This document shows positions 12,875 to 23,627 of a DNA stretch of 45,876 nucleotides, piece after piece. Position 1 is the stretch's first letter. Each line of letters opens with the position of its first letter. Both the position numbers and the translations under genes were made by a program. The notes below the pieces were generated by a model that had not been told where the DNA came from, did no database searches, and saw nothing but the letters and a program-made list of their open reading frames with translations. This stretch comes from Bacteroidota bacterium (GTDB taxonomy: Bacteria; Bacteroidota; Ignavibacteria; Ignavibacteriales; Ignavibacteriaceae): positions 1-45,876 of the forward strand of contig JAMCWE010000194.1 of NCBI GenBank assembly GCA_023475265.1, given 5' to 3'.

Positions 12875-13753
12875 TTAATTTTTTTCTTTGGCTTTTATCC
12901 AGCAATTTTTTATTGGTTCTACATTTTTACTCTCACCTGCAAAAGGCAAGTTATAAAAATCTTCAATTGTTCTAAGCACATAGTAATGATTAATTTTTTC
13001 AGAATAACTTCCGCCTTTTACCATTTCTCCGATAAAGAAAGTTGGTATATGGTTACCGTTGAGATCATTATCTTCATCGAAAGTAAAAATAATAAGTGAA
13101 TTATGTTTCAAGCTCCATTTAATTAATCCACTAAGATTTTTCTTAATCCATTTGTCGCCAAGAATTATTCGATCCGGATCTTTCCCGTCGTGCATATCAT
13201 TTTTAACATTTGGAATTACAAATGAAACCGTTGGAAGTTTTCGATAATCACTTGGAAAATCTTTAAATGAAAGATTTAGTTTTTTTGGTATTCCATTAAT
13301 TTTTGAATCCTGCCAGTTAACCCACGGATTATGGCGTCTTGCATAATTGCCTAAATAATTTCCGTTGTATCCTGTTGATGGTAGATCTTCCGAGTAGCCA
13401 GCGAATGAATAACTGTGCGATAATAATTCAGCGCCTAGATTTGGTTCAGAGAAAGGAAGATTCTTTGGGCGGTCATCATTGTCAATTCCACAAGTTGAAC
13501 CGGCAAAGAATGCCAAATAATTTGGCTGGCTTGGATGAGTTACTGCAAAACTATTTGTAAATAAAGCGCAGTGTTTATTATTAATAAGTGAATTTATATA
13601 AGGGGCTGCTTTAGATCCAATGATTTGTTCATATGCATGGTTTTCAAGAATGACCACCAGAACATGATCTGGCTTTTTAATTTGAGCTTCTGTTATCATA
13701 CTTAAAAAGAAAAACATAATCGGTAAAAAGTAATTTAGATATTTCGATTTCAT
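12875..13753 (-). CDS. Secreted phosphoesterase of the PF04185 (acid phosphatase/phospholipase C) family
   Basis: 292 residues with a signal peptide (residues 1-23, ending 'MITEAQ'). Metal- and phosphate-site motifs of the alkaline-phosphatase superfamily branch PF04185 are seen: 'VVILENHAYEQI' at the start, 'THPSQPNYLAFFAGS' with the nucleophile-region Ser/Thr, 'NDMHDG' and 'FTFDEDND'. Family members are acid phosphatases or phospholipases C that act outside the cytoplasm. The length fits the smaller acid-phosphatase type. It lies between the GH2 gene (163 bases) and the spermidine-synthase-like gene on the same strand, and may have its own promoter. Substrate is unknown. Confidence 0.85.
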   Translation of the reverse strand: MKSKYLNYFLPIMFFFLSMITEAQIKKPDHVLVVILENHAYEQIIGSKAAPYINSLINNKHCALFTNSFAVTHPSQPNYLAFFAGSTCGIDNDDRPKNLPFSEPNLGAELLSHSYSFAGYSEDLPSTGYNGNYLGNYARRHNPWVNWQDSKINGIPKKLNLSFKDFPSDYRKLPTVSFVIPNVKNDMHDGKDPDRIILGDKWIKKNLSGLIKWSLKHNSLIIFTFDEDNDLNGNHIPTFFIGEMVKGGSYSEKINHYYVLRTIEDFYNLPFAGESKNVEPIKNCWIKAKEKN

Positions 13754-13839: not shown

Positions 13840-16002
13840 TTAAATTAAAATAAGCGATAAGATTGATAAGATTCCAATAACATTTCCTGTTGTTAATAAT
13901 CCAAGCATTGGAATTAAGAAAAGACTTGCAGCGATTGATCCAGCCGATCCGCCCAAAAGATCAGCAGAGTAGAGTGGTGAAATTACTTTTAATTGATCTT
14001 TCACTTTAAGAAAACTTGAGTAAGCAAAAATTCCGGCAACTAAAAAACCGGTTAAAAATAAAATGAAAGATGTAATGCTTAAATCTGTAACTAAATTTCT
14101 TTTAATTAAAAATTCAAAAGAAAAATTTAACAAGGCAATTGATCCGATTAAGAATATGCCTAAGGCATAATCAGTGAAACGGCTTTTATTTTTTAAGTGA
14201 TAAAATTTATCAACCGAAAACGACCCAATGGTTAGTCCCGCCATGAAAGCAGTTAATAAAATTCCGATGTTTTGATATAGTATTCCGCTGTTGGTTTGGT
14301 AATTGAGGATAAGCATCGTCTCTGTAATCATACCGATAAATCCGGCAAGAAAAACCAGCAGCCATCGGCGCAAGATGATCCAAAATCTTCCTGCTATAAA
14401 AATAATTGAAATGATTATTAGCATTAACGTCATTGCAAAATAATTTTTGCTAAGGCTGCGGGTAAAATCAGATAAATCAGTTTGAATAAAATCCGGGAAA
14501 AATTTCGAAAGCCAAATTGAAGTTGTGTACTGATAACAAATTGGTTTTACATCCGTATTTATTGGGGCATTTTCTTTTGATAATAAATCCGAGATTTGAA
14601 TAAATCTGTCGTTGGTATAAATGTAGTGAACATATTGCGGGCTTACTAATTTTGTATTTAATTTTCGCGCGGTTAATCTTTCCGCAAGAATTTTATCATT
14701 TGTTTCTAGCTTATCATAAGAACCAATTATAATGTTTGTTGTACCCGGCAGAATGATAACATTCGGGAATACGGATTTTAATGCTCGATAAATACTTGCA
14801 TTTCTCTTTGTAAGCTGAAGCGTCCATAAATTTTCTGACGAGCGAAGACGAAGTGCAATTATTCCTTTGTCGTTCAGTTTTGCAAAACATTTTTCAAAGA
14901 ATTCTTTCGTGTAAAATCTATTAGTTAGACCGGAAGAAGGTTCAGGCATTCCGATTAAAATAACATCATATTCCAAACATGTATTTAGGAAAATTCTCGG
15001 GTCATCAATAATGATTCGAACATTTGAATTAGTTATTGATCTCTTAAAATCTTCCGGTAAATATTTTCTTGTAATATCAATTAATTTCTCATTCAACTCC
15101 ACATAATCTATTTTCTCAGGTTTATATTTTGAAAGCTCATAAATAATTCCTTCCATTCCTCCGCCGAGAACAAGCACCTTAGAAGGCTGCTGGTGATGCA
15201 TTAAAGTTAAGTGAACAAATTCTTCCGCCGAAGTACTTTCTGTTTCAAATGAAAGCGCATCATTTTCGAATACTGAAATTTGTCCTTCCAATGAAGTTAC
15301 TGTGATCCGGCTGTATGGCGTATCTTTTACTTCTACTAAATTCGGATGATTCTGTTTTGTCATTAAAAAATCTAAAGGAGAAGGAAATACTAAAGCAGCA
15401 ATTGAAATGATGATAAATAATGAAGCGACAAAACTAATTGCACTTTTGTTTTCTTTTCTTTTATGGAAAAGTATAAAGCTAAAAGTAATTAAACCGCAAA
15501 GAAGAATTGATTCAAAATTCTGAATGCCAAATATCAAAAATAAAGTAGAAGCAATTCCGCCAAGTATTCCTCCTGCGCTTTCGATTGCATAAGCTTTTGC
15601 AAGTGTTTTATTTTCTGCAACAAAAATTTTTGCGGTTTGTTGAAATAACACACCAACCAAAATGCTGATTGGAAGAATAGAAATTATAATTGCAATTAAT
15701 TGGATATAGAATGGTAAATAAGCACCTGGCATACCTAAAAAAATTAATCTAATTGAGCGGATAAAGATAACGTCTGCAAAAAATAAAATTCCCCAGATGA
15801 GAAATAAAAATTTTAATTGAGTTAGGTTAAGGAAAAATTTTCTTTTGCCGGTAAGCGAACCGATTGCGGTTCCTAATAACCAGAAGCCGAGACTAATAAT
15901 ATAAATTAATTCTATTCCGAAGAATGCTACATTCAATTCGCGGAGAATTAATACTTGTCCGAGAATTGAAATAAATCCTATAATTAGAAGATATATAAAC
16001 AC
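13840..16002 (-). CDS. Membrane-embedded spermidine-synthase-like protein with altered active site
   Basis: 720 residues in three parts: an N-terminal set of hydrophobic helices (about 1-210), a cytosolic Rossmann domain of spermidine-synthase type (about 225-495), and a second helix set (about 515-720). The nucleotide loop reads 'VLVLGGGMEGI' (273-283) and the acidic loop 'VELNEKLID'. Where aminopropyltransferases have the catalytic Asp in 'DVIIVDxxDP', this protein has 'DVILIGMPEP' (346-355): Gly replaces the key Asp and Glu replaces the second. It probably binds a decarboxylated SAM-like or SAM ligand but is unlikely to make spermidine in the canonical way. The stop codons and 12-base spacing put it as the third gene of the Memo/radical SAM operon, pointing to a joint pathway. 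The true reaction is unknown. Confidence 0.8.
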   Translation of the reverse strand: MFIYLLIIGFISILGQVLILRELNVAFFGIELIYIISLGFWLLGTAIGSLTGKRKFFLNLTQLKFLFLIWGILFFADVIFIRSIRLIFLGMPGAYLPFYIQLIAIIISILPISILVGVLFQQTAKIFVAENKTLAKAYAIESAGGILGGIASTLFLIFGIQNFESILLCGLITFSFILFHKRKENKSAISFVASLFIIISIAALVFPSPLDFLMTKQNHPNLVEVKDTPYSRITVTSLEGQISVFENDALSFETESTSAEEFVHLTLMHHQQPSKVLVLGGGMEGIIYELSKYKPEKIDYVELNEKLIDITRKYLPEDFKRSITNSNVRIIIDDPRIFLNTCLEYDVILIGMPEPSSGLTNRFYTKEFFEKCFAKLNDKGIIALRLRSSENLWTLQLTKRNASIYRALKSVFPNVIILPGTTNIIIGSYDKLETNDKILAERLTARKLNTKLVSPQYVHYIYTNDRFIQISDLLSKENAPINTDVKPICYQYTTSIWLSKFFPDFIQTDLSDFTRSLSKNYFAMTLMLIIISIIFIAGRFWIILRRWLLVFLAGFIGMITETMLILNYQTNSGILYQNIGILLTAFMAGLTIGSFSVDKFYHLKNKSRFTDYALGIFLIGSIALLNFSFEFLIKRNLVTDLSITSFILFLTGFLVAGIFAYSSFLKVKDQLKVISPLYSADLLGGSAGSIAASLFLIPMLGLLTTGNVIGILSILSLILI

Positions 16003-16014
16003 ATTATATTTTTA

Positions 16015-17550
16015 TTATCTAAATTCTGATTCTTCAAATACCTCTGCTTGAAATGTAAATAATTGTGCGTCTTTCCAATCATCTGATTGAAGTCCGGCTT
16101 TTCTGCAAAGATTTTCTAAAAGCTGTTCTTTGTTCCAATTCATTTCTGTTGCAACTTGTGGAAGGAAGACCGCCTGCCTGTTGTTTTTACGGATCACAAC
16201 TCCATCGCGCCCAAGAACAATTTCATCGGAACTGCCAATCAGCTTATAAGGAGTAAGCACTGAAATTTCTATTTGGGTTTTGAGTAATTCATCTAAAGTT
16301 AATGGATAAAATCTTGAATCGTTAAAAGCTGATTGAATTGCCATCGAACCAACAACTTCACACAATGGCAAATCTTCCTGCATGTAGCCGATGCATCCGC
16401 GCAGCTCTCCTTTGATTCTCAAAGTGACAAAAGCTCCAAGTTTATTTTCAAGCATCGCATTGAATCCACGTGCAAGCGGTACGGTTTCTGTTTCAAGATA
16501 TTGCCTAATCGATCTTCGAGTAAAAGTAAGAAGAGATTTCTTATCCGAATCTTTTAATTCAAATATCTTTTGTTCCGAACTTACTTCTGGAAAAACATCT
16601 TTTTGATGTTTTTCATTTCCAGATGAAAAAATTACCGAACCGTATCCAACTACTTTTTGCCGGTTGCCAATCAAACAATTCCCGGAGTTTGCATAGCTTA
16701 CAATTATTCCGTTATTAGCTCCAAGTCCTTTAGCGGCTGTCATTGCCGCAATTATTGGTCCTTCGCCGCATGCACATGTTACTAGGTTGGAAATATCTTC
16801 TGACATATTTGTACTAATTTCCTTTTCGAAATATTCTGTATTAAGCGATGAGGCGGCTTCAAGAGTTTTTTTATCAACATTTATTGCATCTTCAAATGCT
16901 GGATAATGTGAAAGGTCGGAGCTTGCAATAATTAATGCATTTCTGTTTTTTAAAATTTTTGATAAAGCATTTCCAAAGTTGGCGCAAAGCTTAATATTAG
17001 ATTCTCCGATAACAACCGGAAGAATTTTTACATTTGGAAATATATGCTGAATAAACGGAATCTGTACTTCAACGGAATGCTCTTTAGAATGAATTTCTTC
17101 ATTATAAACACAATCACTACCTTCTTTAATTAATTCTTCCGCTGCTTGTGTGTCTATCTCAGAAATTCCTAATGGAGTTTGAAAACCGGTGCCGGGATAA
17201 ATACCAATTTTATTGAAACCAGCGGTGGTATGGTTTGTACCAAGAATTACAATCAAATCATATTTGTAATTTTTAATTTGATTATATGAGTCGGCGATAA
17301 TTTGACCGGCATAAATGTAACCGGCATGAGGAGCAATCAAAGCAATAGGCTTTCCAAAATCATCTTTAACAGCGTCATCAAGAAAATAATCAATCGCCTT
17401 TGTAAGCTTTGATGAGTCGGCAGGATAAAACTGTCCTGCAAAAGCTGCTCGCCGGATTTTTGTATTAAGGTTATTCCCGCCGCAATGAACGTTGTTTGTT
17501 AAATTAAACGTTGTCATAATTAATACCAGATAAAAAAATTTAGTTCTCAT
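16015..17550 (-). CDS. AmmeMemoRadiSam protein: Memo-AMMECR1 fusion with signal peptide
   Basis: 511 residues. An apparent signal peptide (1-23) precedes a Memo domain (about 32-310) and an AMMECR1 domain (about 330-505). Memo residues equivalent to the human MEMO1 metal site are seen: His75 ('APHAGY'), His107 ('GTNH') and Cys261 in 'CACGEGPI'. The AMMECR1 hallmark 'LRGCIG' is at 383-388. Memo is related to class III extradiol dioxygenases; no biochemical role of the bacterial system is firmly established. It lies 34 bases downstream of the radical SAM gene and 12 upstream of the spermidine-synthase-like gene. The leader is odd because Memo proteins are normally cytosolic; it suggests export or membrane attachment. 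Confidence 0.88.
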   Translation of the reverse strand: MRTKFFYLVLIMTTFNLTNNVHCGGNNLNTKIRRAAFAGQFYPADSSKLTKAIDYFLDDAVKDDFGKPIALIAPHAGYIYAGQIIADSYNQIKNYKYDLIVILGTNHTTAGFNKIGIYPGTGFQTPLGISEIDTQAAEELIKEGSDCVYNEEIHSKEHSVEVQIPFIQHIFPNVKILPVVIGESNIKLCANFGNALSKILKNRNALIIASSDLSHYPAFEDAINVDKKTLEAASSLNTEYFEKEISTNMSEDISNLVTCACGEGPIIAAMTAAKGLGANNGIIVSYANSGNCLIGNRQKVVGYGSVIFSSGNEKHQKDVFPEVSSEQKIFELKDSDKKSLLTFTRRSIRQYLETETVPLARGFNAMLENKLGAFVTLRIKGELRGCIGYMQEDLPLCEVVGSMAIQSAFNDSRFYPLTLDELLKTQIEISVLTPYKLIGSSDEIVLGRDGVVIRKNNRQAVFLPQVATEMNWNKEQLLENLCRKAGLQSDDWKDAQLFTFQAEVFEESEFR

Positions 17551-17584
17551 TTTTAAATAAATATATATTCAAAAGTTTTTCTAT

Positions 17585-18838
17585 TTATTCCCAAACTCCG
17601 GCAATTGAATTTTTACAATAATCACATCTGCCATTTGTAATGTGTTCTTCGAGGACGAAAAAATTAGTTCGTCTAATTATTTCCTTTTTGCAAAATGGGC
17701 AGTAAGTGTTGTTGCCAGCATGCCCGGGTACATTTCCAATATAAACGTAATGAATTCCTTTATTCATTGCTATATGGCGCGCTCTTTCCAAAGTTGCAAT
17801 TGGTGTGGGCGATAAATTCAATAATTTATAATCAGGATGAAACCTGGTAAAATGAAGCGGTACATCAGGACCAATTTCACCGATTATCCATTCAGCTAAG
17901 CTGTTCAGCATTTTGTCGGAATCGTTCAAAGTAGGCACAACTAAATTAACGATTTCAAGATGAGTTTTAGTTCGTGCTATTTGTTTAATACTTCTTAGAA
18001 CCGGTTTAAGTTCCGCACCGCTTACATTTCTGTAAAAATCTTCGCTGAATCCTTTTAGATCAATCTTGATTGCGCTTAAAACATCGCACATTTCTGCCAG
18101 CGGTTCTTGATTCATAAAACCACAGCTTATCAAAACAGATTTTATATTTTTTTTATTTGCTACTTTCGCGATGTCAATCAAATATTCTGTGAATACCGTA
18201 GGCTCATTATATGTGAAAGCAATAATTGGAATTTTTTTTGTTAATGTAGATTCAACCACAGATTCAGGCGGAATAAATTTAGTCGAAAAATCTTCCGGCT
18301 TTGCTTGTGAGATTTCCCAGTTCTGGCAGAACTTGCAAGATAACGGACAGCCAGCAGTTGCCAGAGAATAAGCTTCTGCACCGGGCATGAAATGATAGAG
18401 CGGTTTCTTCTCGATCGGATCAACATGAACAGCTACAGGATGACCATAAACAAGACTTCTAAGTTCACCGTTGATGTTCATCCTTGCCCGGCATTTTCCG
18501 CGCTCGCCGTTTTTTATTAAACAGCCTTGTGCGCACAACAAGCATTTAATTATTTCTTCGTCGTGCTTATAAGTTTTATTTTTCGAGATTTCTTTTGCTG
18601 TGTGGCAATTTATGCAGTTAACGTTTTTTGTAGAAGTTGAAACCCAATATCTTGCAAGCGGCGCATTTTGCAGAATAGCTTCTTCAATAATAGTATCGAT
18701 AAATGAGTTTACTTTGTCTGAGGAAAGTGTGCGGGACATTATCGAATTGGAAAGTACAAGGCTTGCACCTCCAAATATTAGTCCGTATTGAGATGCCTTC
18801 TTAATGAATTCACGTCTTGAAAGATCTTGTGTATTCAT
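17585..18838 (-). CDS. amrS: AmmeMemoRadiSam radical SAM protein with TAT leader and CxxCH motif
   Basis: 417 residues. The N-terminus has a twin-arginine type leader ('SRREFIKKAS' then a hydrophobic segment, about 6-34). Radical SAM cluster ligands Cys164, Cys168 and Cys171 are in 'TAGCPLSCKFCQNWE', followed by the family stretch 'AFTYNEPTVF'. Upstream is the conserved Cys-rich region 'CLLCAQGC' (99-106) and 'GKCRARMN'. At the C-terminus are two Cys pairs ('YCPFC', 'CDYC') like a zinc ribbon. An additional 'CINCH' (75-79) fits the c-type haem-binding motif. Family: AmmeMemoRadiSam system radical SAM enzyme; substrate unknown. It is the first gene of a three-gene operon, with a 225-base gap upstream that holds the terminator of the next gene. 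Confidence 0.88.
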   Translation of the reverse strand: MNTQDLSRREFIKKASQYGLIFGGASLVLSNSIMSRTLSSDKVNSFIDTIIEEAILQNAPLARYWVSTSTKNVNCINCHTAKEISKNKTYKHDEEIIKCLLCAQGCLIKNGERGKCRARMNINGELRSLVYGHPVAVHVDPIEKKPLYHFMPGAEAYSLATAGCPLSCKFCQNWEISQAKPEDFSTKFIPPESVVESTLTKKIPIIAFTYNEPTVFTEYLIDIAKVANKKNIKSVLISCGFMNQEPLAEMCDVLSAIKIDLKGFSEDFYRNVSGAELKPVLRSIKQIARTKTHLEIVNLVVPTLNDSDKMLNSLAEWIIGEIGPDVPLHFTRFHPDYKLLNLSPTPIATLERARHIAMNKGIHYVYIGNVPGHAGNNTYCPFCKKEIIRRTNFFVLEEHITNGRCDYCKNSIAGVWE

Positions 18839-20288: not shown

Positions 20289-20837
20289 ATGAACTCGTTA
20301 CAAATAATATCAATTGAAAAAATAGAAAATAAAATATTTTTAATCCGAGAGCAAAAAGTAATGATCGATTCTGATCTTGCTGAATTATATGGAGTCTCAA
20401 CTAAAGTTCTTAATCAAGCAGTAAAGCGCAATATTGAAAGATTTCCTGTCGATTTTATGTTTGTCTTGAACAAAGACGAAAAAAACGAACTGGTCACAAA
20501 TTGTGACCACCTCAAAAAACTTAAGTTCTCTTCTGCCTTGCCAAAAGTATTTACAGATTACGGCGCTATCATGCTTGCTTCAATATTAAATTCCCAAAGG
20601 GCAGTTGAAGCAAGTGTATATGTAGTTCGTGCTTTTGTCAAATTGCGGGAAATATTATCCACACATAAAGAGCTTGGACAAAAGTTAAAAGAATTAGAAT
20701 TTAAAATAGAAACACATGATGAACAGATAACATCAATTATTGAGGCTATAAATCAACTGTTAGCTCCGCCGCCGGAACCGAAAAGAAAGATGGGATTCCA
20801 GGTGAAAGAGAAAAAAGTTTTGTATAAGAAAATTTAG
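20289..20837 (+). CDS. ORF6N domain DNA-binding protein (first of a tandem pair)
   Basis: 182 residues preceded by a good ribosome-binding site (GGGAGG, three bases before ATG). The N-terminal ORF6N domain (about 5-100) is recognised from 'ENKIFLIREQKVMIDSDLA', 'LYGVSTKVLNQAVKRN' and 'RFPVDFMFVL'. This domain is common in phage antirepressor-like regulators and in mobile bacterial loci. A helical segment (about 135-165) likely forms a coiled coil, followed by Pro-rich 'PPPEPKRKMGF' and the conserved tail 'VKEKKVLYKK'. It differs from its neighbour by having 'NELVTNCDHLKKLKFS' in the middle. It opens the plus-strand island, and its paralogue follows 13 bases later. The precise target is unknown. 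Confidence 0.85.
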   Translation: MNSLQIISIEKIENKIFLIREQKVMIDSDLAELYGVSTKVLNQAVKRNIERFPVDFMFVLNKDEKNELVTNCDHLKKLKFSSALPKVFTDYGAIMLASILNSQRAVEASVYVVRAFVKLREILSTHKELGQKLKELEFKIETHDEQITSIIEAINQLLAPPPEPKRKMGFQVKEKKVLYKKI

Positions 20838-20850
20838 AAAAGGAAAGTTT

Positions 20851-21369
20851 ATGAACAATGTACAAAGCATTCCAATTGAAGTAATTGAAAACAAAATATT
20901 TTTAATACGCGGGCAAAAGGTTATGCTTGATAGAGACCTAGCACAACTATATGGAACTGAAACCCGGACACTAAAACAAGCTGTAAAGCGGAATTTAAAA
21001 CGATTCCCGCCGGACTTTATGTTTCAGTTAAGTAAAGAAGAATTTACAAACTGGAGATCACAAATTGTGATGTCCAAATCTGATGAGAAGGGATTGCGCC
21101 ATCTTCCGTTTGCTTTTACTGAACAGGGTGTAGCAATGCTTTCTTCTGTATTAAATAGTGAACGAGCAGTTGAAGTAAATATCTTAATTATTCGAGCGTT
21201 TGTAAAGCTTAGAGAAATATTATCAACTCATAAAGAGCTTGCACAAAAACTAAAAGACCTGGAACTGAAATTAGAAACCCATGACGAGCAGATAACATTA
21301 ATTATAGCAGCAATAAATCAGTTGTTGAAACCGCCGCCGGAACAGAAAAAAAAATGGGATTTCAGGTGA
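20851..21369 (+). CDS. ORF6N domain DNA-binding protein, C-terminal tail frameshifted
   Basis: 172 residues in the frame as given, with AAAGGAAAG upstream of ATG. It is a clear paralogue of the preceding gene: 'ENKIFLIRGQKVMLDRDLA', 'LYGTETRTLKQAVKRN', 'RFPPDFMFQLSKEE', 'FTEQGVAMLSSVLNSERAV'. After 'PPPEQKKK' the frame passes an A9 run (21346-21354) and ends at once in 'WDFR'. Adding one A restores 'MGFQVKEKKILYKKA' and a stop at 21401, giving 183 residues against 182 in the paralogue. The lost tail is the conserved family C-terminus. Causes could be a real deletion, slippage of the A tract (phase variation) or a sequencing error. The DNA-binding domain itself is intact. Confidence 0.82.
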   Translation: MNNVQSIPIEVIENKIFLIRGQKVMLDRDLAQLYGTETRTLKQAVKRNLKRFPPDFMFQLSKEEFTNWRSQIVMSKSDEKGLRHLPFAFTEQGVAMLSSVLNSERAVEVNILIIRAFVKLREILSTHKELAQKLKDLELKLETHDEQITLIIAAINQLLKPPPEQKKKWDFR

Positions 21370-21918: not shown

Positions 21919-23627
21919 ATGAAAATAAGAGCTATTGATAAAGATGTAAAAGACATCCTTACTTCAAACTATTATAAAATCCCAAGATTTCAACGTCCAT
22001 ATTCTTGGGAGGCAGAACATATAATTGATTTTTGGAACGATACAATAGTCAAAAGGTAGATGAAGAAGAATATTTTATAGGCGCTATAGTTATTTATGAT
22101 GATAAATATGGTTTTAAGGGAATAGTTGATGGACAGCAGAGACTTACAACAATAATAATAATGCTTTGCGCTTTGAGAGAAATATTTAAAAACGAAGGGT
22201 ATGATGATTTAAGTTTAGGAATTCAAAATATAATCGAACGTGCGAATATTAATAACGATAAACAATTTGTTATTAGTACCGAAACTTCATTCCCCTTTTT
22301 ACAAGAAAATATATTAAAATTTGACAAAAATAATTTTACAATTAATCCTGGGCCCGAAGAAAACAATATTGAATATGCATATAATTATTTTTTAAACAAT
22401 ATTACTCAAACAATTCAATCTTTAAAAGATAATCCTTCACTAAGTGAAAGTAATCTTTCAAAAAAGATTGAAAACCAACTGATATACATTAGAGAGTGTA
22501 TACTTAATTTAAAATTAATATTTGTTGAATTGGATAATGAAGATGATGCATATCTTATATTTGAAACTTTAAACACTCGAGGAAAAGATTTAAAAACTAA
22601 TGATTTATTAAGAAATTTTTTCACAAAAAATATTCATCCAACAAATAGAGATTCAGATTTAGTTAAATTAAAATGGAATAATATTTTATCAAATATAAAT
22701 GATTCTTCAGCTACTTTAGATTTGGATAAATACATATATAATCATTGGCTATCAAAATACAGTTATGTATCAGTAAAAAAATTATATAAAGAAATTAAAA
22801 GCAATATAAAAGGGAAATCAATAAATGAATATTTGGACGAATTAGAATCAAATTCTAAGATATATAGAAGTCTAAATGAAGTTACCTCATATAAATGGGA
22901 TAAAAGTGAAATCGAATTAAAAAATTCATTAATCGCTTTTGATATATTTAATGTAAAACAACACATACCTATAATTTTATCAGCTTTTCGCAATTATAAA
23001 GACGGTAAAATCAAGATAAAGCACCTAAGAAATTTGATGATAACAATTGAAGATTTTCATTTTATTTATACAGCTATTACTGCTTCCAGGTCAACTGGAG
23101 GAATGGCACAAATGTATTCTTCTTATGCCATAAAAATTGAAAAAGAAAAAAATGCAGTAAAGGTAGTGGATATAATTTTGGAATTTATCGAAAAATTAAA
23201 ATTAAAGATTCCATCAATTGAAGAATTCAAAATAAATTTTAATGAATTAATCTATACTGATAAATTTACAAAGTATAAGAATCTAGTTAAATATATTTTA
23301 CAAAAATATGATTGCTATATGAGAAAAGGAGATATTATTGATTATTCCAAAATGACAATAGAACACCTGATACCCCAAAATTCGAAGTCTCATAAGATTG
23401 AAGAAAATATTTTAGGCTCTATTGGAAACCTTATGTTAGTAGATGAAGATACTAATAGTAATAAATTAAAGAATAAAGTATTCTCGGAAAAGAAGAAAAT
23501 ATTAAAAGAATCAAATTATCCTTTAGATAATATTTTAATTAAGAATGATGAGTTGAGCAAGGATATAATTGTACAAAGAACAAATCATATTGCTGAAGTT
23601 GGGTATAATAAAATTTGGAAAATTTAA
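21919..23627 (+). pseudogene. GmrSD-like DUF262/DUF1524 restriction nuclease, frameshifted
   Basis: Reading begins at ATG 21919 with 'KIPRFQRPYSWEAEHI' and 'DFWNDTIVKR', then stops. The continuation is in the -1 frame from about 22053 ('VDEEEYFIGAIV', 'GIVDGQQRLTT'). Adding one A to the AAAA at 22051-22054 joins them into one protein of 569 residues. The N-terminal DUF262 domain (GmrS-like ParB/sulfiredoxin fold; 'DGQQR' nucleotide site) is followed by a C-terminal DUF1524 HNH nuclease with 'TIEHLIPQ' and 'IGNLMLVDEDTNSNKLKNK'. Such fused proteins are type IV restriction enzymes directed against modified phage DNA. The gene is visibly more A+T-rich than the core genes around it, which suggests transfer. 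A 531-residue product from TTG 22032 would lack the 'PRFQRPYSW' motif. Confidence 0.8.

Follow-up and report, generated by a model that had tools for sequence, protein, structure and literature searches.

A cassette of three adjacent genes within a 45,876-nucleotide stretch of Bacteroidota DNA (the window; assembly GCA_023475265.1, contig JAMCWE010000194.1, positions 1 to 45,876) appears to encode an AmmeMemoRadiSam branch that is extracytoplasmic and exists alongside an ordinary set of the same proteins; we put the probability of this reading at roughly 65%. The genes encode a radical S-adenosylmethionine (SAM, also AdoMet) protein with a predicted twin-arginine translocation (Tat) leader, a Memo-AMMECR1 fusion with a Sec-type leader, and a membrane protein resembling the major facilitator superfamily (MFS) with an inserted spermidine-synthase-like domain. 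Judged from their sequences, all three very probably act outside the cytoplasm. A first-pass annotation of this DNA had taken the leaders to imply an extracytoplasmic or membrane-linked pathway, and the conservation of those leaders across genera and phyla supports that view; the CxxCH site of the radical SAM protein and the outward orientation of the synthase-like domain are additions to it. Since all three genes lie on the minus strand, the radical SAM gene comes first, the Memo-AMMECR1 gene second and the membrane protein gene third. Their features are listed below, where family members are the eight exported-type copies found in a survey of 80 genomes of the window's family, its own genome included.

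17585-18838, minus: radical SAM gene (AmmeMemoRadiSam radical SAM enzyme, putative exported branch), 417 aa; from TIGR04337, AlphaFold and Foldseek
18797-18820, minus: twin-arginine motif SRREFIKK, radical SAM residues 7-14, head of the Tat-type leader; from sequence and conservation
18602-18616, minus: CINCH, radical SAM residues 75-79, a CxxCH motif of haem c type, in 8/8 family members
18563-18565, minus: His92 of the radical SAM protein, proposed second ligand; conserved with the CxxCH
18326-18349, minus: C164-x3-C168-x2-C171 radical SAM cluster motif, invariant across 46 aligned radical SAM sequences
16015-17550, minus: Memo-AMMECR1 fusion gene, 511 aa; from TIGR04336, TIGR04335 and Pfam Memo and AMMECR1
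17482-17550, minus: predicted lipoprotein-like signal peptide of the fusion, with Cys23 at its end, Cys in 8/8 family members
16633-17448, minus: Memo domain of the fusion (Pfam PF01875), His75 and His107 invariant in 22/22
16036-16524, minus: AMMECR1 domain of the fusion, residues 343-505 (Pfam PF01871)
13840-16002, minus: MFS-like membrane protein of 720 aa (GTG start), with 14 predicted helices and an inserted spermidine-synthase-like domain
15388-15999, minus: transmembrane helices 1-7 of the membrane protein; from AlphaFold model helices and charge bias
14503-15351, minus: spermidine-synthase-like domain, approximately residues 218-500, predicted outside; from PF01564, VIA-align and topology
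13846-14442, minus: transmembrane helices 8-14 of the membrane protein; from the AlphaFold model and VIA-align to MFS 8pnl

The AmmeMemoRadiSam operon was annotated earlier with exact coordinates, and the curated NCBIfam models bear it out: the radical SAM protein scores 365.1 bits against TIGR04337 (cut-off 220), and the fusion scores 236.1 bits against TIGR04336 (cut-off 26) and 167.2 against TIGR04335 (cut-off 99). The AlphaFold model of the radical SAM protein has a pLDDT of 91.2. With its 14 predicted helices and a score of 86.3 bits against Pfam Spermine_synth (cut-off 22.9), the third product is indeed a polytopic membrane protein with a spermidine-synthase-like domain. The genes are separated by 34 bp and then 12 bp, and a scan upstream of the operon was uninformative, with two promoter-like sites against a shuffle mean of 1.4, and no terminators.

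Leaders were scored by eye and with a simple rule; the radical SAM protein has MNTQDLSRREFIKK plus a hydrophobic stretch (Tat). The motif (L/I)SRRxF is present in 7/7 family radical SAM proteins with a complete N-terminus, the window's own counted; the eighth (genome G023) is cut by a contig end and stands outside this count. In the fusion, the predicted signal peptide (MRTKFFYLVLIMTTFNLTNNVHC) ends in a cysteine that is found in all eight family members. The window genome encodes TatC and two TatA-type proteins, and the twin-arginine motif, the hydrophobic stretch and this machinery together make up the putative signature of a Tat substrate. Both leaders called in the first-pass annotation, Tat on the radical SAM protein and Sec-type on the fusion, are thus conserved in the family, and relatives of both proteins bear leaders in other phyla too. 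Applied to the 836 other open reading frames (ORFs) in these loci that are 200 aa or longer, a background that takes in Tat-type DUF362 neighbours and some spurious ORFs, the loose Tat rule has 36 matches; among ordinary radical SAM copies it has 0/21. Against this background a chance leader was rejected as the explanation. Because the leader is conserved across genera and phyla and is followed by an extension that is itself conserved, a start further downstream is not supported for the window.

The same pattern holds in a wider set of 88 relatives, made up of the window, seven from its family and a broader sample comprising the best 80 of 584 confirmed matches; these 80 were picked by likeness to the window, and their proportions are therefore not prevalences. 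Among the 88 radical SAM relatives, 66 have a Tat-type leader (L098 and L111, missed by the rule, were labelled Tat by eye), 12 a Sec/anchor-type leader and 7 none, while 3 are cut by contig ends (L040, L059 and L119); those with leaders come from many phyla. In these loci 54 Memo proteins were scored, and 51 of them are AMMECR1 fusions. Leaders were called in 52 of the 54, including a doubtful call in L121, where the Memo match is weak (74 bits); the Memo ORF of L052 lacks its start, perhaps through a frameshift, and that of L120 runs off the end of its contig.

A tree of 109 radical SAM cores, calculated with the leaders left out and midpoint-rooted for drawing only, separates 21 ordinary copies from the family from the 88 others (support 100/100). 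The window lies in a clade of 24 of the 109 rows (support 99/81), in which the eight family members stand together with KSB1, Latescibacterota, Calditrichota, Acidobacteriota, Aminicenantota, Thermodesulfobacteriota, Chloroflexota and records whose label is Myxococcota or just 'bacterium'. Every radical SAM protein of this clade whose N-terminus is visible, 22 in all, has a Tat leader. The ordinary copies, 20 from the family and the window genome's own, were compared with flanks that reach about 8 kb at most and are shorter near contig ends: none of the 21 has a Tat-type leader, and no Memo, AMMECR1 or membrane-synthase gene was found in the flanks examined. In the window genome the ordinary radical SAM copy (510.8 bits, no Tat-type leader) is on another contig, and adjacent, separate AMMECR1 and Memo genes, both leaderless, are on a third. 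The genome also holds a third, more distant Memo relative (L046:8298-9377, minus, G000:C25; 359 aa, Pfam Memo 87.7 bits), whose signal-peptide-like start makes it possibly another exported Memo.

Across the 80 family genomes, exported-type radical SAM proteins are found in eight (601 to 965 bits, all other matches scoring at most 331 bits), the cassette has one order in all eight, and each of these genomes also keeps an ordinary copy. The membrane protein occurs in nine genomes, the same eight and G016, in which a contig end falls inside the Memo gene; beside that cut Memo-AMMECR1 gene the membrane-synthase gene is split into three ORFs (L153, G016:C126), through either decay or assembly error. 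The broader sample led, by way of 50 of its 80 loci, to 50 genomes outside the family, and 45 of these genomes have at least two matches above the TIGR04337 cut-off.

The linkage of the third gene was followed through the clade, where it is visible in 19/24 loci and has the same order and strand in all 19 that show the three genes. Four of the other five (L051, L053, L054 and L058) stop at contig edges, and L050 is without the membrane gene despite more than 6 kb of room. Gaps in the clade are below 150 bp except for 217 bp in L040, 374 bp in L049 and 1101 bp in L062. The last of these loci has, between its Memo-AMMECR1 and membrane-synthase genes, a nitroreductase fused to a cytochrome b561-like membrane part (L062:6119-7246).

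The AlphaFold model of the membrane protein (pLDDT 89.5) consists of seven helices, the synthase-like domain and a second helical part, which was read as seven helices after the last long helix had been split by hand. The domain aligns with the spermidine synthase SpeE (3anx) with a VIA-align Z of 29.8 over 275 residues. The membrane part of the model aligns with the MFS transporter 8pnl (Z 20.6, rmsd 3.9, 333 residues, model 1-720) and with GLUT1 (6tha, Z 20.7), in structure listings that are dominated by the synthase domain and contain MFS rows from rank 46 on. The Spermine_synth domain is detected by Pfam in 19/19 members scanned and MFS_1 in only 2/19 (best E 0.0024). Topology was assessed in 29 homologues by counting Lys and Arg in loops placed from the AlphaFold model. 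These charges put the synthase-like domain outside according to the N half in 29/29, the C half in 28/29 and both halves in 28/29. Where an MFS carrier has two additional helices separating its halves, the loop that joins this pair lies outside, in agreement with the predicted outward domain.

Ahead of the radical SAM core, the extension has a CxxCH motif in 21/24 clade members, followed in all 21 by a His 11-13 residues further on; in L055, L057 and the contig-cut L059 neither is visible, and the same pattern found CxxCH in the extension of 0/64 relatives outside the clade. Such joint presence or absence is what a bound cofactor would give, and the motif with its candidate second ligand constitutes a putative c-type cytochrome signature. 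Where a genome encodes cytochrome c assembly, CxxCH in one of its exported proteins is the usual mark of haem c, a site that is made outside the cytoplasm; the window genome has six cytochrome c assembly matches with PF01578. On this basis the CxxCH of the radical SAM protein probably carries haem c.

Relatives outside the clade have other candidates for electron supply as neighbours. Neighbouring genes were clustered and hidden Markov models (HMMs) made from the clusters, so that the following counts include weak HMM matches and come from flanks of varying length. Among the 64 loci outside the clade, CcdA/DsbD-type proteins occur in 9, FMN_bind+Fer4_5 proteins in 14 and polyferredoxins in 17, with overlaps, and at least one of the three, which we take to be membrane redox proteins, in 24; by the same models they occur in 0/24 clade loci and beside 0/21 ordinary copies. 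Pfam confirmed the neighbour families on ten examples. Carrier genes thus stand only near relatives without CxxCH, a contrast that is no more than suggestive. Two of these loci (L092:1744-3435 and L126:5585-7252) have a CcdA/DsbD-type membrane part, FMN_bind and Fer4_5 in one protein beside the exported radical SAM gene. A DUF362 protein, often Tat-type, is encoded in 24/64 loci outside the clade (L071:6896-7909 and 23 further loci), in most of them directly upstream of the radical SAM gene; the L071 protein matched no NCBIfam model at E 1e-10.

Several observations count against an extracytoplasmic branch or limit how generally it can be drawn. The lipobox before the cysteine of the window's fusion reads VHC, a non-standard box, and AdoMet is not known outside the cytoplasm. 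Three ordinary copies (L134, L137 and L044) have a first possible start upstream of the shared one, and the longer possible start of L134 includes a hydrophobic stretch that its relatives do not share. Outside the clade the membrane gene is seen in 31/64 loci, on the same strand in 12 and the opposite strand in 19, which makes for weaker linkage there. The electron-carrier contrast comes from one clade and includes weak HMM matches, and in two clade members, L055 and L057, CxxCH is absent and no electron carrier is visible either, so that haem would not be essential. Finally, the CxxCH and its His are also compatible with zinc binding, and seven radical SAM relatives are leaderless, which argues against a general rule.

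The zinc and leaderless observations each suggest a different account. In the first, the CxxCH and later His would form a structural zinc site, the proteins would still be exported and electrons would come from elsewhere. Two Cys and two His fit zinc and the site is missing altogether from L055 and L057, but the protein with the motif is predicted to be exported, its genome has cytochrome c assembly matches, and electron-carrier genes are found only near relatives without the motif (a contrast of one clade), and we regard a zinc site as unlikely, if worth keeping in view. In the second, the pathway would be split: the radical SAM step would be cytoplasmic, either because it precedes export or because the lineage keeps the enzyme inside, the Memo-AMMECR1 and membrane steps would take place outside, and the MFS-like protein would carry an intermediate across. 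AdoMet and low-potential donors are cytoplasmic, as this account needs, and in L066 and L075 the radical SAM protein is leaderless but the neighbouring Memo protein has a leader, so that the radical step may be cytoplasmic in those loci. Against it stand the Tat leaders throughout the window's clade, the haem c site, which would be made outside, and the finding that six of the seven leaderless forms make up one nested branch (support 100/92, midpoint root), with L066 elsewhere in the tree. We consider a split pathway rather improbable.

The active site of the membrane protein bears on a third account, in which it would be a working polyamine aminopropyltransferase and the operon would make an aminopropylated envelope compound. 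The Spermine_synth domain in every member scanned and the SpeE fold speak for it. At the position of the first Asp of what we take to be the catalytic pair of polyamine aminopropyltransferases, however, the window protein has Gly, and the 29 homologues have Asn (13), Gly (8), Ser (3), Asp (3), Ala (1) and His (1); at the second position the window protein has Glu, and 12/29 have Asp. The protein also falls below all six NCBIfam cut-offs listed for it, far below in the case of the aminopropyltransferase models (PRK03612, 118.4 of 472 bits; PRK00811, 101.8 of 260; speE, 98.5 of 249.55) and with 30.2 bits against 40 for the fused MFS/spermidine synthase NF037959. In contrast, Glu302 is kept in 27/29 and Asp334 in 29/29, presumably nucleoside-pocket positions of SpeE. 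With these residues kept and the catalytic Asp mostly lost, binding of an adenosyl compound is plausible from the sequence and ordinary polyamine synthesis doubtful, and we think it improbable that the protein is a working aminopropyltransferase. The earlier description 'aminopropyltransferase-like' holds for the fold and is weaker as regards activity. That the leaders are chance hydrophobic starts of cytoplasmic proteins, as the existence of leaderless relatives might suggest, is very improbable given leaders conserved in many phyla and no Tat-type leader in any of the 21 ordinary copies.

If the cassette is an extracytoplasmic branch, its products might work as follows. The radical SAM protein would acquire its fold and its Fe-S clusters in the cytoplasm before export by Tat, and haem c attached at its N-terminal CxxCH would be the electron entry point outside. 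The Memo-AMMECR1 fusion would be exported via Sec and would probably sit next to the radical SAM protein on a lipid anchor. The third protein would be an MFS-type carrier with its spermidine-synthase-like domain facing outside, which more likely binds or hands over an adenosyl compound, or transports a pathway substrate, than makes polyamines. Jointly the three would use radical chemistry to modify a substrate in the envelope or periplasm. We offer only tentatively that the carrier moves AdoMet or a related adenosyl compound. Similarly speculative is a complete AdoMet-radical pathway outside the inner membrane, in which the carrier would export the adenosyl compound, the outward domain would hand it to the Tat-exported haem c radical SAM protein and lipid-anchored Memo-AMMECR1 would process the product. 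If true, such a pathway would imply that a pool of AdoMet exists outside the cytoplasm and that electrons cross the membrane by a dedicated supply, with haem in the clade and polyferredoxin, FMN or CcdA-type proteins elsewhere.

Beyond the cassette, a PF04185 phosphoesterase gene (12875-13753, minus) with a signal-peptide-like start lies directly downstream. It was rejected as a fourth member: it adjoins the cassette in only 3/8 family loci (the window, L037 and L039) and was not seen by eye among the listed ORFs of the remaining clade loci. Upstream are two adjacent ORF6N-domain genes and a GmrSD-type restriction gene (20289-21369, plus; 22032-23627, plus), possibly a mobile or defence island.

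AmmeMemoRadiSam proteins are tied to anaerobes and have human relatives, MEMO1 and AMMECR1, and we met no established function for them in the literature searched. AdoMet and strong reductants are thought to be inside the cytoplasm, and radical SAM chemistry outside it would for this reason be surprising. If this branch is exported, its substrate in these lineages would not be ribosomal, tRNA or otherwise cytoplasmic, which narrows the search, and localisation, haem on the radical SAM protein and binding of adenosyl compounds by the outward domain become directly assayable. In the portion of PMC13386939 that we consulted, AMMECR1 heads the anaerobic Pfam families, with values of 3.38 and 50.66 that we read as the percentage of aerobes and the percentage of anaerobes. 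According to the part consulted of PMC7159879, conflict systems contain a related radical SAM domain. Literature searches for an exported radical SAM protein with twin-arginine and AdoMet, for a membrane spermidine synthase with AMMECR1, and for an AdoMet transporter in a periplasmic context found no paper, and PMC10924467, returned for radical SAM with Tat or periplasm, is in its consulted part not about exported AmmeMemoRadiSam. An exported AmmeMemoRadiSam with a haem site and an outward MFS-synthase partner was not found in the literature searched, although Burroughs et al. (2019), who treat the Memo superfamily, may already mention secreted or fused Memo.

Comparison with known proteins places each of the three. 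The first Foldseek match of the radical SAM model is 3cb8, the pyruvate formate-lyase activating enzyme (TM-score 0.82, normalised to the target length), a protein of about 245 residues that is not known to have a Tat leader or CxxCH. The Memo domain of the fusion is a sequence relative of human MEMO1 (7kq8, 64 bits), from which it differs in being predicted to be exported and fused to AMMECR1. Its invariant His75 and His107 align with H49 and H81, which are among the MEMO1 metal ligands in the part consulted of PMC11081632, with the numbering of the aligned chain deduced from spacing; the third ligand position, C244, is by eye not conserved in the exported branch. With the fused MFS/spermidine synthase family (NF037959) and PRK03612 the membrane protein shares a spermidine-synthase-like domain and MFS-like model helices, and it differs in scoring under both cut-offs, in the catalytic Asp mostly lost from its homologues and in a domain predicted to lie outside. 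With the AmmeMemoRadiSam system itself (TIGR04335, TIGR04336 and TIGR04337) the cassette shares all three domains above curated cut-offs and the CX3CX2C motif. What sets it apart from that system is the fusion of Memo and AMMECR1 behind a signal peptide, the Tat leader and the CxxCH-containing extension (about 90 residues) on the radical SAM protein, and the added membrane partner. The ordinary set is kept at other loci of the genome. By the curated models these proteins are AmmeMemoRadiSam members, and within the literature searched the predicted exported form, with its putative haem site and outward MFS-synthase partner, is the new aspect.

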